A DNA stretch of 64,000 bases from NCBI GenBank assembly GCA_027023405.1, contig JALVVN010000006.1:119142-183141 (forward strand), given 5' to 3'. A model generated the notes under the pieces. The model saw only the letters and a list, made by a program, of their open reading frames with translations, searched no databases and had not been told where the DNA came from. Of this stretch, positions 57,945-63,932 are shown in pieces. Positions within the stretch are counted from its first letter, which is position 1; each line of letters starts with the position of its first letter. Position numbers and translations under genes: made by a program. The stretch is from Campylobacterales bacterium (GTDB lineage Bacteria; Campylobacterota; Campylobacteria; Campylobacterales; QNZT01).

Positions 57945-58748
57945 GTCTCAATCCCCTTAGATCGAGTCTTTGTTGTAACTGGGTATTGGAACGGGGAGAG
58001 AGGCGGCTCTGTGCGGTCTCAATCCCCTTAGATCGGGTCTTTGTTGTAACTTAGTATTTTAACCACCCTCTCAAGGACGCCTTTGTCTCAATCCCCTTAG
58101 ATCGGGTCTTTGTTGTAACAAATTTTAGGGATTGAAGTGCTTGACCATGTGAGTCTCAATCCCCTTAGATCGGGTCTTTGTTGTAACAGAGCTAGATGCT
58201 CTTATATAAAAAATATTAGCCAGTCTCAATCCCCTGAGATCGGGTCTTTGTTGTAACACAATAGATGCTACTACTACTGTATCACTACTAGAGTCTCAAT
58301 CCCCTTAGATCGGGTCTTTGTTGTAACTATACTCCCACGATTGCTTTAAGAGCTTAAAGTCTCAATCCCCTTAGATCGGGTCTTTGTTGTAACAGTGATT
58401 TAAAAATACAAAAATTGCAAAAATCACTCTGTCTCAATCCCCTTAGATCGGGTCTTTGTTGTAACAGTTGGAGCCCTAAAGATGTATTTGAAAGAGCTTA
58501 GTCTCAATCCCCTTAGATCGGGTCTTTGTTGTAACAAGTTCGCAGATATGAAGAGCTACGGTCAGATAAAGTCTCAATCCCCTTAGATCGGGTCTTTGTT
58601 GTAACGACACGCCACGATCTGGGCTGACCGAAACGGAAGTCTCAATCCCCTTAGATCGGGTCTTTGTTGTAACTAGAGTAGACTACAGAGTTATAAATAA
58701 ATCGGTTATTATTGTCTCAATCCCCTTAGATCGGGTCTTTGTTGTAAC
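57945..58748 (-). CRISPR. CRISPR array, 12 repeats and 11 spacers
   Basis: Twelve 35-nt repeats beginning GTCTCAATCCCC and ending TTTGTTGTAAC start at 57945, 58016, 58085, 58153, 58223, 58293, 58359, 58431, 58501, 58571, 58639 and 58714. Spacers are 31-40 nt. Repeat 1 has G to A at its position 20 and repeat 5 has T to G; the others are identical. Read on the - strand the repeat ends ATTGAGAC, like the ATTGAAAC 3' handle of type I/III crRNAs, and the most degenerate repeat is at the left. So transcription is leftward with the leader at 58749-58967, beside the cas operon. Confidence 0.97.
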
Positions 58749-58967: not shown

Positions 58968-59348
58968 TTAATATTTTCTTATTGGTCGTATGAGATACTC
59001 CTCTAGTCGTTCTCGATTGTCATAGAGAAAGCGATAGACTTCAAACGCTTCATGCGCGGGGAGGTCTTCGGCTGTGGTTTTGTCGTAGATAAAGCCTTTG
59101 AGGTTGATGCCGAGTATGCGTCCTTTGTAAAGGATTTCGGGATAGATGTCATTGGCTATGTCGGCACGCATCTCTTGGCGCAAGCGATCAACAAATCGAA
59201 AATAGTCTCTATTCTTTTTATGTCGTGGATGGCGATTTTCTTTGAGGATATGCTTGATCTCCCGTAGCTCAAAGAGTATCTCATCCGCCCACGAAGGTCG
59301 TGTATCGCTCTCACTCAAAAGCTTCTCCATCTGATCATAAACTGTCAT
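58968..59348 (-). CDS. Unknown protein, last gene of the cas operon
   Basis: A 126-aa protein, mostly helical and charged: MTVYDQMEKLLSESDTRPSW, then FELREIKHILKENRHPRHKK, RFVDRLRQEMRADIANDIYP, and a C-terminal helix YRFLYDNRERLEEYLIRPIR. It starts 11 nt after the cas2 stop and ends at the leader. No nuclease, HTH or RRM motif is recognised. Position suggests a cas accessory role, in adaptation or leader binding. Not a known Cas family to me. Confidence 0.65.
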   Translation of the reverse strand: MTVYDQMEKLLSESDTRPSWADEILFELREIKHILKENRHPRHKKNRDYFRFVDRLRQEMRADIANDIYPEILYKGRILGINLKGFIYDKTTAEDLPAHEAFEVYRFLYDNRERLEEYLIRPIRKY

Positions 59349-59359
59349 CGAACTTCCTC

Positions 59360-59632
59360 CTAAAAGAAATCATACGGATGCGCCAAATCCATCGCCGATC
59401 CCATGCGAATACCGTAGTGTTTGATACGATAGATACGGATATCATCCTGCTTCTCATTGTATATCGACAATATCCGATCTACCAGCGACATCACCTCATC
59501 GCGGGTCACATCCGTCACCAAAAAGAGCGAATATTGAAATCGAATCGCCTTTTTCTCCAAAACCTTTGCGATTTTGCGTAGGCGTTTTGGGTCAGAGATA
59601 TCGTAAGCGACGACAAAATCATATTTGCGCAT
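59360..59632 (-). CDS. cas2: Cas2
   Basis: A 90-aa Cas2: VAYDISDPKRLRKIAKVLEK with the conserved Asp in YDISD, then RFQYSLFLV and the beta-5 region DDIRIYRI. Cas2 dimerises and scaffolds the Cas1 integrase for spacer acquisition. It overlaps the preceding Cas1-N-like gene by 14 nt. A second Cas2-like gene is three genes upstream. Confidence 0.9.
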   Translation of the reverse strand: MRKYDFVVAYDISDPKRLRKIAKVLEKKAIRFQYSLFLVTDVTRDEVMSLVDRILSIYNEKQDDIRIYRIKHYGIRMGSAMDLAHPYDFF

Positions 59633-59873
59633 TGTTGATCTCCGTTATTGTTGCGAGTAGATATCCGTCATGATCAATCAAAATGAGATCAATCTTTTGA
59701 CTCAAAGCATAGCAAACACCGATCGGGATATCTAGCGATTTGTTAAGATAGATGCGCTCAATATGAATAAATGCTACGCTGTAGCTATTGGTCGGTGAGA
59801 TGATCTCCAAATACTCCTCATGCATTCGAAGCTTGATCATCGGATCTCTTAGTATTAGTGTCCGTTTTCTCAT
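59619..59873 (-). CDS. Free-standing Cas1 N-terminal-domain-like protein
   Basis: An 84-aa all-beta protein. After MRKRTLILRDPMIKLRM the pattern EEYLEII..SVAFIHIERIYLN, then IPIGVCYALSQ and LILIDHDGYLLATI, follows the beta-domain of Cas1 (an IPLHxIxxLxI strand, then an alpha/beta turn, then VVFLxxxG). The following gene-wise upstream neighbour is a complete Cas1 with its own N-domain, so this is an extra copy, not a broken one. 4-nt overlap with cas1 and 14-nt overlap with cas2 put it inside the adaptation module. It lacks the catalytic alpha domain. The assignment is by pattern, not a search. Confidence 0.62.
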   Translation of the reverse strand: MRKRTLILRDPMIKLRMHEEYLEIISPTNSYSVAFIHIERIYLNKSLDIPIGVCYALSQKIDLILIDHDGYLLATITEINNAQI

Positions 59874-60733
59874 AGCATTCCCCTTATCTCAGTGATAGTA
59901 GCATCGATACGCGGTTCGAGAGAGGCGGAAAACTCACGAAAGTGTTGCCACAATTTTTTTCGCCCTTCATAGCGCAAATAGACACCGCTTTTTTTACTAA
60001 AATCTTGATGCGTGACGATCTTTTGAGAAAATATCTCATAGACAAATTGATTGATATCGGCACGATAGAGCTCCAAAATATCAGACGCCAAAGCCATATG
60101 AGATCGAAAAGGGCGATGCAAAAATCCGAGAGACGGCTCAAAACCAAATCCGATCAAACGCACCCCTATGAGGTGATAGATCAGTGTGTAGAACCACGAG
60201 AGCAGTGCATTGAGAGGATCGAGCGGTGGGCGTTTGGTTCGTCTTCCTTTGTGGAGTACTTTGGGGAAGAGCGAAAAGTAGTGCGTAAAATAGTGGCGTG
60301 AAAAACTCCCCTCGATACCAAGTAGTTCATCTAGTGTCTTAGCCCGATCCAGACGACAAAGTATCTCATGCGTCTGAAGCGAAATCTCATGTCTTTGAAG
60401 CTGTCCGGCGTGGGCGGTGATCTTGCGCGAGAGGATCGTCTTGGCGATGGGTAGCGTTTTTGTCGTGCAGGCTTGATATTGGGCGAGTTTGAGTTGGGCA
60501 TTTTTGGATGAGGTCGTCGTGATATGCGCACTTTTTGTAAAGTCGGATGAAAAGAGCACGACATGGGTAGAATTTGAAGAGAGTTTTGTCAGATCGGCGG
60601 CTTGTAGCTTTTGATCTCCTACGATAAGGAGAGTGTCGATCAGGTGCAAAGGTATCTTTTGTGAGTCGATCTGTAGCAGTTCACTCTTGAGACTGATCTG
60701 CGCATCTTTTCTATCGACGATAATCACATTCAT
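59870..60733 (-). CDS. cas1: Cas1 integrase
   Basis: A 287-aa Cas1 with an N-terminal beta domain (residues 1-75) and the catalytic alpha domain. Metal-binding residues are intact: Glu141 in LLGIEGSFSRHYF, His206 in SLGFLHRPFRS and Asp218 in ALASDILELYR. It integrates prespacers at the leader-proximal repeat together with Cas2. It starts in the last codons of the Cas2-like gene (ATGA overlap). Subtype cannot be fixed from Cas1 by eye. Confidence 0.93.
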   Translation of the reverse strand: MNVIIVDRKDAQISLKSELLQIDSQKIPLHLIDTLLIVGDQKLQAADLTKLSSNSTHVVLFSSDFTKSAHITTTSSKNAQLKLAQYQACTTKTLPIAKTILSRKITAHAGQLQRHEISLQTHEILCRLDRAKTLDELLGIEGSFSRHYFTHYFSLFPKVLHKGRRTKRPPLDPLNALLSWFYTLIYHLIGVRLIGFGFEPSLGFLHRPFRSHMALASDILELYRADINQFVYEIFSQKIVTHQDFSKKSGVYLRYEGRKKLWQHFREFSASLEPRIDATITEIRGML

Positions 60734-61002
60734 AGTATAATCACCCCCTTGTCATACGCTATAAAATCAGCCTTTCCAAAACAGATCGGCTCACCTTCGA
60801 TCGCAATAATATTGATCTTGTCATTATCACGAATCAACTTTTCCAGCTTTGAAACAAGCTCTTTGAGCAATTTTTTATCAAGCGGTGCTTCGACTGCACT
60901 CTTTTGCCCACCCAGTGCATAGCTATGCGCCACCTTTCGCACCTTTTGCAAGCGCTTCTTATCGGCGATGTCATAGCAGACTAGGTAGTGGTTAGTGCTC
61001 AA
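60730..61002 (-). CDS. Second Cas2-like protein
   Basis: A 90-aa protein from a TTG at 61002 behind GGGGGAC; the frame continues upstream but those codons lie inside the 43-aa ORF. STNHYLVCYDIADKKRLQKV shows the Cas2 beta1-Asp motif (YDIAD), and the middle reads YALGGQKSAVEAPLDKK, a variant in place of RVQxSVFE. The C-terminus FGKADFIAYDKGVIIL is typical of this Cas2 branch. Two different Cas2 proteins in one operon may form a heterodimer or serve different Cas1 complexes. Confidence 0.78.
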   Translation of the reverse strand: MSTNHYLVCYDIADKKRLQKVRKVAHSYALGGQKSAVEAPLDKKLLKELVSKLEKLIRDNDKINIIAIEGEPICFGKADFIAYDKGVIIL

Positions 61003-61197: not shown

Positions 61198-62124
61198 TCA
61201 GTCTTTAGAGAGATAAGTCTGCAGATCCTCTTTGAGACGATCTTGGAGCCATTTGGGTTTGAGGATGCGGATATGAGGAAGCCACTTTTTGACAAGCGGT
61301 AGTATCTCCATCTCGTTGGTGATTGTATATGTTGCGATGAGTGTTCCATCCTCTTTTTCTTGGGTGATTTGTTGAGATTTGAGATGATTTTTGACGCGAA
61401 AGTAGCGGGCGACAAAGCTGTCGATCTCCAGTGTGACCTCAATGTCGGGAGCTTGATAGTTTTGAAAGAGGGATTGAAACCGCCGGATAAACTCCTCCGC
61501 ATCAATTTCACGGTGAAATGTCTCCGGCTCTAGTTCAAAACTCCGAATAAAATTGATACGCAAAAACTTAAATCCCCCATTCTGCTCTTCTTCCGTCATC
61601 GCCCCTAGATACCAATTTCCCTCGGCAAAGATGATCTTGATGGGCTTTATACTCCTAAAATGCTTGATCTTAGTATCTCGATCGATGTAGCGAATTGTCG
61701 CTTTTCGGTGCGCTTTGATCGCCTCTTTGATAGGATTTAGCTTCTCATCATCCAGGCGCTCTATGGGATTTTCGGCGATGTGGTAGAGTGTGGCAACATC
61801 CTTTTTGACTTGGTGAATGATCGGAAACTCCCGCACATCGAAGATAGACAAAAGCCTCGCGTCAAACAGCGCGATAAACTCGAAAAACTCCCTGATCTTC
61901 ACACTATCTTTGAGATAAGAGAAGAGCTCTTGTCGATTTTGTAGCGCATAGCACCCCCGCGATGGCATCAAAAGCTTCTCCCCTAGAAACTCTTTGAGTA
62001 TCTTGATATCTCTCTGTACGGTTCTCTTGTCCGTCTCAAAGATCTCGACAATCTTCTTTGTGCAAAGCTGATCACTCTCTCTTAGGAGCGTCAATAACCT
62101 GAGTATCCTTTGGGCTTGGTTCAT
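61198..62124 (-). CDS. WYL-domain transcriptional regulator
   Basis: A 308-aa protein: an N-terminal winged HTH (MNQAQRILRLLTLLRE to TDKRTVQRDIKILKEF), a WYL domain with IRYIDRD and EGNWYLGAMTEEE, and a C-terminal WCX-type extension. WYL regulators control CRISPR, BREX and CBASS loci in many bacteria, often sensing nucleic acids or nucleotides. Start ATG at 62124 is behind AAAGGA. It lies between the SAVED gene and the cas operon, on the same strand, and is the obvious candidate to bind the two CGACA palindromes. Confidence 0.88.
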   Translation of the reverse strand: MNQAQRILRLLTLLRESDQLCTKKIVEIFETDKRTVQRDIKILKEFLGEKLLMPSRGCYALQNRQELFSYLKDSVKIREFFEFIALFDARLLSIFDVREFPIIHQVKKDVATLYHIAENPIERLDDEKLNPIKEAIKAHRKATIRYIDRDTKIKHFRSIKPIKIIFAEGNWYLGAMTEEEQNGGFKFLRINFIRSFELEPETFHREIDAEEFIRRFQSLFQNYQAPDIEVTLEIDSFVARYFRVKNHLKSQQITQEKEDGTLIATYTITNEMEILPLVKKWLPHIRILKPKWLQDRLKEDLQTYLSKD

Positions 62125-62180
62125 CTCGCATCCTTTTGGGGTTAAAAGTAGTATTTGATCTTATTGAGACGACTCATCAC
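62115..62180 (+). repeat. 66-bp exact direct repeat, copy 1
   Basis: Identical to 62928-62993. This copy carries the start codon and ribosome-binding site of the WYL gene and an out-of-frame 3' end of the SAVED gene. It lies at the 3' end of the PIN toxin gene, whose last codons (CDESSQ-stop) are read from it. Confidence 0.95.
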
Positions 62181-62631
62181 AAATAGTTAATACTTGATCA
62201 ATTAGTTTTTCTGATATATATATTTCAGATTTTTCTATCAGGTTTATTAGCGGTTTTACCTCTTTTATGTAGCCACTCTCCTTTGCCTTGATCAAAACTC
62301 CCAAACTACCTATGACCTTTATACCGTTTAGAACTGCAAATTTTTTACCTCTATTATCATCGATAAGAAGTAGATCCGCGTCCAATTCTCTATAGAGTGT
62401 TATAGCTTCCAATTCACCGGATCCCAACCCAAGCTTTTCGATTTTCAAATCTACTTTTTTAACTTTATTTTCTAAAAAATCCCCTAATCTAGCGCCATAC
62501 GGCTTATCTACCTTTGTTACTTCATTATAAACCGCATAGGGAACAAACAATTCATCAAACAACTTCTCTAAAAGATCCAATTGATCAACAATCGCTAAAG
62601 TGATCAAAGCAGAACTATCGCCGATTATCAC
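62161..62631 (-). CDS. PIN-domain toxin (DUF3368 type)
   Basis: A 156-aa PIN protein. MIIGDSSALITLAIVDQ, GSGELEAITLYREL and ADLLLIDDNRGKKFAV carry the metal-site acids; GIKVIGSLGVLIKAKESGYI is the DUF3368 signature. It lies 2 nt after its antitoxin gene. The C-terminal six codons come from the flanking 66-bp repeat, so its original end was probably replaced when the module inserted. Catalytic residues are intact. Confidence 0.85.
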   Translation of the reverse strand: MIIGDSSALITLAIVDQLDLLEKLFDELFVPYAVYNEVTKVDKPYGARLGDFLENKVKKVDLKIEKLGLGSGELEAITLYRELDADLLLIDDNRGKKFAVLNGIKVIGSLGVLIKAKESGYIKEVKPLINLIEKSEIYISEKLIDQVLTICDESSQ

Positions 62632-62633
62632 TA

Positions 62634-62882
62634 TTAGTCCTTCAAATTATCTAATTCTGCTTTTATATCATAATCCTTGATCGCAGGTAGTCCGTTTTGA
62701 CTTAACAATTTCATAAATGAGTAGAGATTCATATCCAGTATCTTAGCGCCTTGAGATGTAGAGATTTTCCCTTTTTCATAGAGCTCCAATACAAATTTTC
62801 TTTTAGCCATCTCCTTAAGATGGTCATCGCTTTCATTTATCGCCAAGTATATATCATCAGGTATTTCAAAGGATAAACGCAT
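62634..62882 (-). CDS. UPF0175-family antitoxin
   Basis: An 82-aa protein (ATG at 62882 behind AAGGAGG) with MRLSFEIPDDIYLAI and EKGKISTSQGAKILDMNLYSF, the pattern of UPF0175 antitoxins that partner DUF3368 PIN toxins. It contains a helix-turn-helix-like segment in the middle and should repress the pair. Confidence 0.83.
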   Translation of the reverse strand: MRLSFEIPDDIYLAINESDDHLKEMAKRKFVLELYEKGKISTSQGAKILDMNLYSFMKLLSQNGLPAIKDYDIKAELDNLKD

Positions 62883-62927
62883 AACCAACCTCCTTTTGAA
62901 TCATTATATCATAACTAATCAAGATGA

Positions 62928-62993
62928 CTTGGTTCATCTCGCATCCTTTTGGGGTTAAAAGTAGTATTTGATCTTATTGAGACGACTCATCAC
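62928..62993 (+). repeat. 66-bp exact direct repeat, copy 2
   Basis: Carries the true end of the SAVED gene (stop at 62955-62957) plus a vestigial copy of the WYL ribosome-binding site and its first codons (ATG at 62937, MNQ). Period to copy 1 is 813 bp, with 747 bp of unique sequence between. Confidence 0.95.
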
Positions 62994-63932
62994 GGGCTTG
63001 TACTCCCCGTCATTGAACTGTGTCAGCATGATATCCCAATAGCTCTGAACACTCATCCCCAGCAAGATTGCAATAGTTGTGGGCATAGAGTATGCCAAAG
63101 TGATATGTGGTGAGTGTTGTTGGAGAGTATTGATGACGCTGTATATCTCTTGGTTGGCACGGATAAACTCTTCAGGCTTATGCAGAGTCGCTCCTACTCT
63201 GCTTTCGAGGTGAATGATGGGCTTTTGGAGCTTGTTGAGCGCTACTTTGTGCGAAGCTAGATCGATGGCTATCGTCACATGTTCACTTTCTTCTACTTGA
63301 CCGATATCCTCTCTTTTAAAGATTTCAAACGCATCGATCGGCTCTTTAAACTTTCGCGAATCGATTTCAAGGGCGATAGCATAACTATCGGTCGATTTGT
63401 TGTACTGATAGAGTGTGACTCCCTCCGTCCCGAAGATCGTACCCACTAAGATCGCATTTGCGATTGGTCCGATATAGACCATATGAAACTGCACATTTTT
63501 GGGAGTTTTCGCCTCTAGTCGCTTGATATCGTGTTTGGATATCTTGAGAAAATCGACAAAACGATCCTCATCAAATATATCACCGCTGTACTCAAAGATC
63601 AGATCATCAGGTGTGATATTGAAATACTTTTTAAGATTCTCTTGATGATGAGGATAGCTACCCTGAAAATTTTCAAAGAGTGAAGCAAGTGCTGATCGTG
63701 AGTCGGCGGGATTTGAGATATTGAAAACGATAGGGATAGGTACATTTGGCTGAGAGTAGAGCTTTTGCTTGCGCTTTTCATCGATATAAGCCAGTACAAA
63801 GAGAACTGCTACGATACCTGCTGCAATAGCATAGGCGATCGGCACACCGATATAATCAGCTACAAAAGCCACCGGTACGGCTAACAGCGACGCGGTAGTA
63901 GCAAAGCGATTTGAGAGAATATTTTCTATCAT
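62955..63932 (-). CDS. Two-TM SAVED-domain protein (putative membrane effector)
   Basis: A 325-aa protein. Two TM helices (about residues 12-30 and 32-50, AVPVAFVADYIGV and IAAGIVAVLFVLAYI) are followed by a soluble domain with SAVED features: VTIAIDLASHKVALNK, then a long helix EEFIRANQEIYSVINTL, then HITLAYSMPTTIAILLG and a Tyr-containing end DGEYKPVM. SAVED domains bind cyclic oligonucleotides made by CD-NTases (CBASS) or Cas10 (type III CRISPR); two TM plus SAVED resembles Cap14-type effectors that would permeabilise the membrane. No cyclase is in the window. A CGACA palindrome precedes it. Confidence 0.68.
   Translation of the reverse strand: MIENILSNRFATTASLLAVPVAFVADYIGVPIAYAIAAGIVAVLFVLAYIDEKRKQKLYSQPNVPIPIVFNISNPADSRSALASLFENFQGSYPHHQENLKKYFNITPDDLIFEYSGDIFDEDRFVDFLKISKHDIKRLEAKTPKNVQFHMVYIGPIANAILVGTIFGTEGVTLYQYNKSTDSYAIALEIDSRKFKEPIDAFEIFKREDIGQVEESEHVTIAIDLASHKVALNKLQKPIIHLESRVGATLHKPEEFIRANQEIYSVINTLQQHSPHITLAYSMPTTIAILLGMSVQSYWDIMLTQFNDGEYKPVMSRLNKIKYYF

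Follow-up and report, generated by a model that had tools for sequence, protein, structure and literature searches.

Why would a CRISPR adaptation operon that encodes a complete Cas1 integrase also keep a separate gene for the N-terminal domain of Cas1? The question is raised by a 64,000-nt stretch of a Campylobacterales bacterium genome (positions 119,142–183,141 of contig JALVVN010000006.1, assembly GCA_027023405.1; hereafter the window), in which an 84-aa open reading frame (ORF), here termed N, lies between cas1 and cas2a, one of two cas2 genes. With a probability of about one half, N and a degenerate, full-length second Cas1 (DEG) that occupies the same slot in two other phyla are a dedicated non-catalytic subunit of an unequal type III-A Cas1-Cas2 integrase. 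We infer the interaction and function of both proteins from fold, synteny, conservation, the degeneracy of DEG, and the paralogy of the two Cas2 proteins. Many of the compared loci derive from metagenome-assembled genomes, and the wider scan used a Cas1 alignment as query, the N alignment being too divergent for a pattern scan of contigs.

A preliminary description of the locus, made from the sequence alone, had proposed that N reproduces the pattern of the Cas1 beta domain without the catalytic part. Both statements held: the motifs ERIYLN, IPIGVC, and LILIDHDGYLLA are all present, and the 84 residues include neither a C-terminal helical domain nor any of the catalytic E/H/D(E) residues. As a single sequence, N matches Cas1 weakly, with E = 0.18 to Pfam Cas_Cas1 (profile positions 4–75 of 283; 11.4 bits, below the curated cut-off of 22.3) and E = 0.016 to PADLOC Cas1b. 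The AlphaFold2 model calculated from the family alignment has a mean predicted local distance difference test score (pLDDT) of 91.1 and consists of seven strands (residues 4–8, 14–17, 21–25, 30–34, 38–44, 62–66, and 72–76) and one helix (51–58). Cas1 chains made up all 50 best matches listed for this model by Foldseek against the PDB (best E = 1.7e-5), mostly with query-normalised template modelling scores of 0.65–0.75, so that the structure prediction called for in the preliminary description returned the fold of the Cas1 beta domain. Profile-profile alignments placed N in register with the N-domains of Campylobacterota Cas1 (P = 0.0025) and of diverse canonical Cas1 (median P = 4.5e-5 in 60 resamplings). 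N is a Cas1-derived domain and not a Cas1 integrase.

Homologues of N, with identities down to 24%, were recovered from 14 of 149 related genomes; the window genome has a single copy. Residues Y21, Y42, I66, D67, and G70 are nearly invariant in the family, and the median net charge is +5. The ratio of nonsynonymous to synonymous substitution rates (dN/dS) is 0.01–0.23 in all computable pairs, similar to or somewhat above that of cas1, and this purifying selection, together with the fold and the homologues, identifies N as a selected protein rather than a spurious ORF. Conserved synteny, likewise anticipated in the preliminary description, was found in many Campylobacterota: N lies between cas1 and cas2a in the loci examined and has an unbroken frame in 36 loci, which span many families. 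No relatives were detected among the viral contigs or plasmids searched. Three further matches were rejected, namely GerM as a match of the N profile (14 residues only, taken as chance), a hit in one genome (G088) whose frame is interrupted by stops, and the sole weak match to a stand-alone N outside Campylobacterota, an RNA-methyltransferase-like ORF in a different context in Nitrospirota (L166).

All 63 complete loci of three phyla, a set that includes a few near-duplicates, share the gene order cas2b-cas1-X-cas2a on one strand, where X is N in 35 loci and DEG in 28, and in most of them the reading frames overlap. In the window, the overlaps of N (4 nt with cas1 and 14 nt with cas2a) agree on re-examination of the coordinates with those first reported. 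Phylogenetic analysis placed the Cas2b proteins of Campylobacterota, Nitrospirota, and Desulfobacterota in one branch and their Cas2a proteins in another (support of 96 and 88, respectively, in the Shimodaira-Hasegawa-like approximate likelihood ratio test), both separate from the Cas2 proteins of systems that have only one. Because the paralogues group across phyla, the Cas2 pair predates the split of these modules, and cas2b-cas1-X-cas2a looks, from these trees and the shared gene order, like one old system. The module of the window genome adjoins cas10, csm2, csm3, csm4, csm5, and csx1 (locus L126), and the system beside it is of type III-A; the Nitrospirota loci also carry Csm1-type Cas10 and Cas6. 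In one Nitrospirota locus (L125) the Cas2b motif has diverged to GCQKS.

The occupant of the slot in the other phyla was recognized in a Nitrospirota locus (L082), where a 271-aa protein, DEG, replaces N and matches Pfam Cas1 with E = 7.7e-12. Used as query, it had matches in 30 of 246 Nitrospirota genomes, although two or three among the weakest are ordinary Cas1 (e.g. L124, L125). A profile search of Desulfobacterota gave matches in 14 of 198 genomes, with four clear DEGs (E ≤ 6e-37); the others are weak, partial, and score as ordinary Cas1 proteins do. The homology of DEG to the active Cas1 encoded beside it extends through both domains (hhalign, 8.7e-19, 250 columns), and DEG also matches solved Cas1 structures in the PDB (4.3e-15). 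An alignment of 26 DEGs shows 25 without the third catalytic acid, 25 with a deletion of the RPP loop, and 12 with the catalytic histidine still in place; most have lost the first catalytic glutamate or cannot be aligned there, whereas the catalytic positions and the two loop prolines are invariant in the active Cas1 of these loci. Judged from these residues, DEG is very probably catalytically dead, and its presence in other phyla argues for reading N as a dedicated non-catalytic Cas1 subunit. Candidates for a full-length DEG in Campylobacterota (21 weak, partial matches, best E = 3.6e-9) were rejected; those that could be placed, including the one in the window, are ordinary cas1. Scans of Campylobacterota and Nitrospirota revealed no transitional form between DEG and N, leaving aside frames of 730–750 aa with Cas1-like parts in four Campylobacterota loci (L156, L158, L162, L164), which are possibly Cas1 fusion proteins.

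The full Cas1 next to N retains its own N-domain, as had been stated, and spans Pfam Cas_Cas1 positions 2–282 of 283. Residues E141, H206, D218, and E221 are invariant in the alignment, with E141, H206, and E221 as the catalytic set. Two Campylobacterota loci are of separate note: in one (L026:11125-13046) a two-gene, IS21-type-like insertion splits cas1 while N and both cas2 genes are intact, and in the other (L081:1458-2311) cas1 is fragmented in three, with N, cas2a, and cas2b open. Two contigs labelled Candidatus Gracilibacteria (L054, L062) carry a Cas1 close to that of Campylobacterota (L053, L057) and are probably misbinned.

N may have arisen in either of two ways, by reduction of a DEG to its N-terminal domain or by separate copying of the N-domain of the neighbouring Cas1. 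The slot and the partner genes favour the shrunken DEG, and one deeper profile comparison leans the same way (P = 0.00046 versus 0.0031). Profile scores tie: of 60 resamplings, Campylobacterota Cas1 scored best in 30 and DEG in 29. The best N-domain tree favours a copy of the Cas1 N-domain, on an alignment of 90 columns in which a grouping of N with DEG is not rejected (approximately unbiased test, p = 0.32).

How such a subunit could work is suggested by solved Cas1-Cas2 complexes, in which the C-terminal strand of Cas2 joins the beta sheet of the Cas1 N-domain (PMC6620040) and inactive Cas1 subunits line the repeat channel (PMC12259127). The N-domain on which the Cas2 strand docks is that of the Cas1B subunit. 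A free N-domain is thus suited to bind a Cas2 tail or a Cas1 N-domain and would add no active site to the complex, and the retention of two Cas2 paralogues in one module makes an integrase of unequal halves the simplest reading. At its centre would be a Cas2a-Cas2b heterodimer; N or DEG would take the Cas1B-like place on a Cas2 strand, most likely beside Cas2a, and catalytic Cas1 would then be spared from filling every place. The resulting complex would have two different ends and could handle the prespacer ends differently, or distinguish the leader side of the repeat from its spacer side. A rather improbable extension goes further: the asymmetry of the Cas2a-Cas2b heterodimer, the catalytic Cas1, and its non-catalytic partner, kept whole in Nitrospirota and Desulfobacterota and as the N-domain only in Campylobacterota, would give the integrase a built-in polarity, and this polarity, rather than the protospacer adjacent motif, Cas4, or host factors alone, would set which spacer end meets the leader.

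Several observations weigh against a dedicated, non-catalytic subunit. N is absent from six readable Campylobacterota modules (L045, L055, L060, L061, L070, L075) and was not found elsewhere in the genomes of these six at E ≤ 0.01. On the Cas1 tree the modules without N are scattered, requiring five changes; since this is so and Nautiliaceae too have N, it was probably ancestral in the Campylobacterota module and then lost repeatedly. No Cas1 or Cas2 column shifts consistently where N was lost, and loss without visible compensation argues against N as a strict structural replacement of an N-domain, a role raised in the preliminary description alongside Cas2 binding and capping of the complex. 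Furthermore, a Nitrospirota locus (L125) has cas2b-cas1-cas2a without DEG, N joins the Cas1 N-domains of Campylobacterota (98/91) and not DEG in the best N-domain tree, and the intact N-domain of the full Cas1 means that an ordinary homotypic complex should remain possible. The repeated losses indicate that N is useful but dispensable, i.e. accessory.

The features of the window are listed in Table 1. The start of cas2b is likely the TTG at 61002, as judged from the sequence, in a longest ORF that extends to 61095. The module's fifth conserved gene, p126, lies between cas2a and the array, and some of the loci that share it have no N. It had no match in Pfam or PADLOC, and no PDB fold matched its AlphaFold2 model (pLDDT 83) at E ≤ 0.001; the DNA-binding MPND is among the faint matches that fall short of significance. 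The approximately 220 nt that separate the CRISPR array from p126 are likely the leader. Near the end of the window, a 325-aa SAVED-domain membrane protein (62955–63932, minus strand; PADLOC SAVED_TM, Pfam SAVED) is likely a type III signalling effector, and a toxin-antitoxin-like pair of DUF3368 and UPF0175 genes (62161–62631 and 62634–62888, minus strand) carries the PADLOC label PDC-S70.

Table 1. Adaptation module and adjacent features in the window (positions are those of the window).
Feature	Position	Strand	Evidence or remark
CRISPR array	57945..58748		12 repeats of 35 nt, spacers 31–40 nt
p126, fifth conserved gene of the Campylobacterota module	58968..59348	-	126 aa; in 20 loci, including the window
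cas2a, second Cas2 paralogue	59360..59632	-	90 aa; Pfam CRISPR_Cas2, 6.6e-17
N, stand-alone Cas1 N-terminal beta-domain protein	59619..59873	-	84-aa ORF
cas1, complete integrase	59870..60733	-	287 aa; Pfam PF01867, E = 1.5e-52
cas2b, first Cas2 paralogue	60730..61002	-	GGQKS motif; Pfam CRISPR_Cas2, 1.1e-11
WYL-domain regulator, upstream of the adaptation module	61198..62124	-	Pfam WYL/WCX, PADLOC WYL

Two serious rivals assign N another role. As a regulator or cap, it would mimic the Cas1 N-domain, compete for the C-terminal strand of Cas2, and so hold the integrase inactive or limit acquisition. In its favour, Cas2 docks on the N-domain of Cas1 in solved complexes (PMC6620040), and N consists of that domain only; its dispensability in several lineages is what would be expected of a regulator, and its translation is probably coupled through the overlaps with cas1 and cas2a. 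We nevertheless consider this role rather unlikely, because it leaves unexplained both the paired Cas2 paralogues and the fact that the slot is filled in other phyla by a degenerate Cas1 of full length, C-terminal domain included. Unlikely, too, is that N serves as a docking adaptor that brings p126, leader DNA, Cas6, or the type III-A effector to Cas1-Cas2, comparable to Csn2 on type II-A Cas1 N-domains. The position of p126, a protein of no known family, after cas2a in 20 loci would fit such a role, as would the positive net charge of N, which is compatible with DNA contact; p126 is, however, present without N in four loci (L055, L061, L070, L075), so that N is not needed to keep p126.

Very unlikely, finally, is that N has no present function and is what remains, in decay, of a second Cas1 or a partial duplication. 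It has been lost several times and diverges faster than the cas1 and cas2 genes in most pairs, as a leftover might, but the low dN/dS in every computable pair, the intact gene in 36 loci of many families, the confident compact fold, and the five nearly invariant residues all speak against decay.

If N and DEG are indeed non-catalytic subunits of an unequal integrase, the module would bear on a general problem of adaptation: the Cas1-Cas2 integrase described in PMC12259127 is C2-symmetric, yet has to integrate spacers in a single orientation. An integrase found in nature that combines two different Cas2 proteins with a catalytically dead Cas1 partner, in a gene order shared by three phyla, would be a direct handle on the choice of orientation and would also bear on the role of non-catalytic Cas1 subunits, with N of Campylobacterota as the smallest part of a non-catalytic Cas1 still worth keeping. 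Engineering of directional DNA recorders is a possible use. In the literature searched, which left most subscription journals outside, we found no description of a second, inactive, duplicated, or fragmentary Cas1, or of a paired Cas2.

Compared with known systems, N shares the fold of the N-terminal beta domain of Cas1 (PF01867) over almost its entire length and aligns with it in register, but lacks the C-terminal alpha-helical domain and the catalytic E/H/D(E) residues and is encoded on its own, next to a complete cas1. In the type III-A loci of Nitrospirota and Desulfobacterota, DEG has in common with N the slot between cas1 and cas2a and the company of both Cas2 paralogues, and differs in keeping the N- and C-terminal domains (approximately 260–290 aa), where N is the N-domain only. 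Ordinary Cas1-Cas2 hexamers also contain non-integrating, structural Cas1 chains, to which N as a non-catalytic subunit may be compared (PMC12259127); there a single polypeptide provides both the active and the non-catalytic chains, whereas N would be supplied by a gene of its own. The usual adaptation module has one cas1 and one cas2, while that of the window encodes two Cas2 paralogues, a complete Cas1, and N and, as in type III-A (Csm) systems, adjoins genes for Cas10, Csm2–Csm5, and Csx1.
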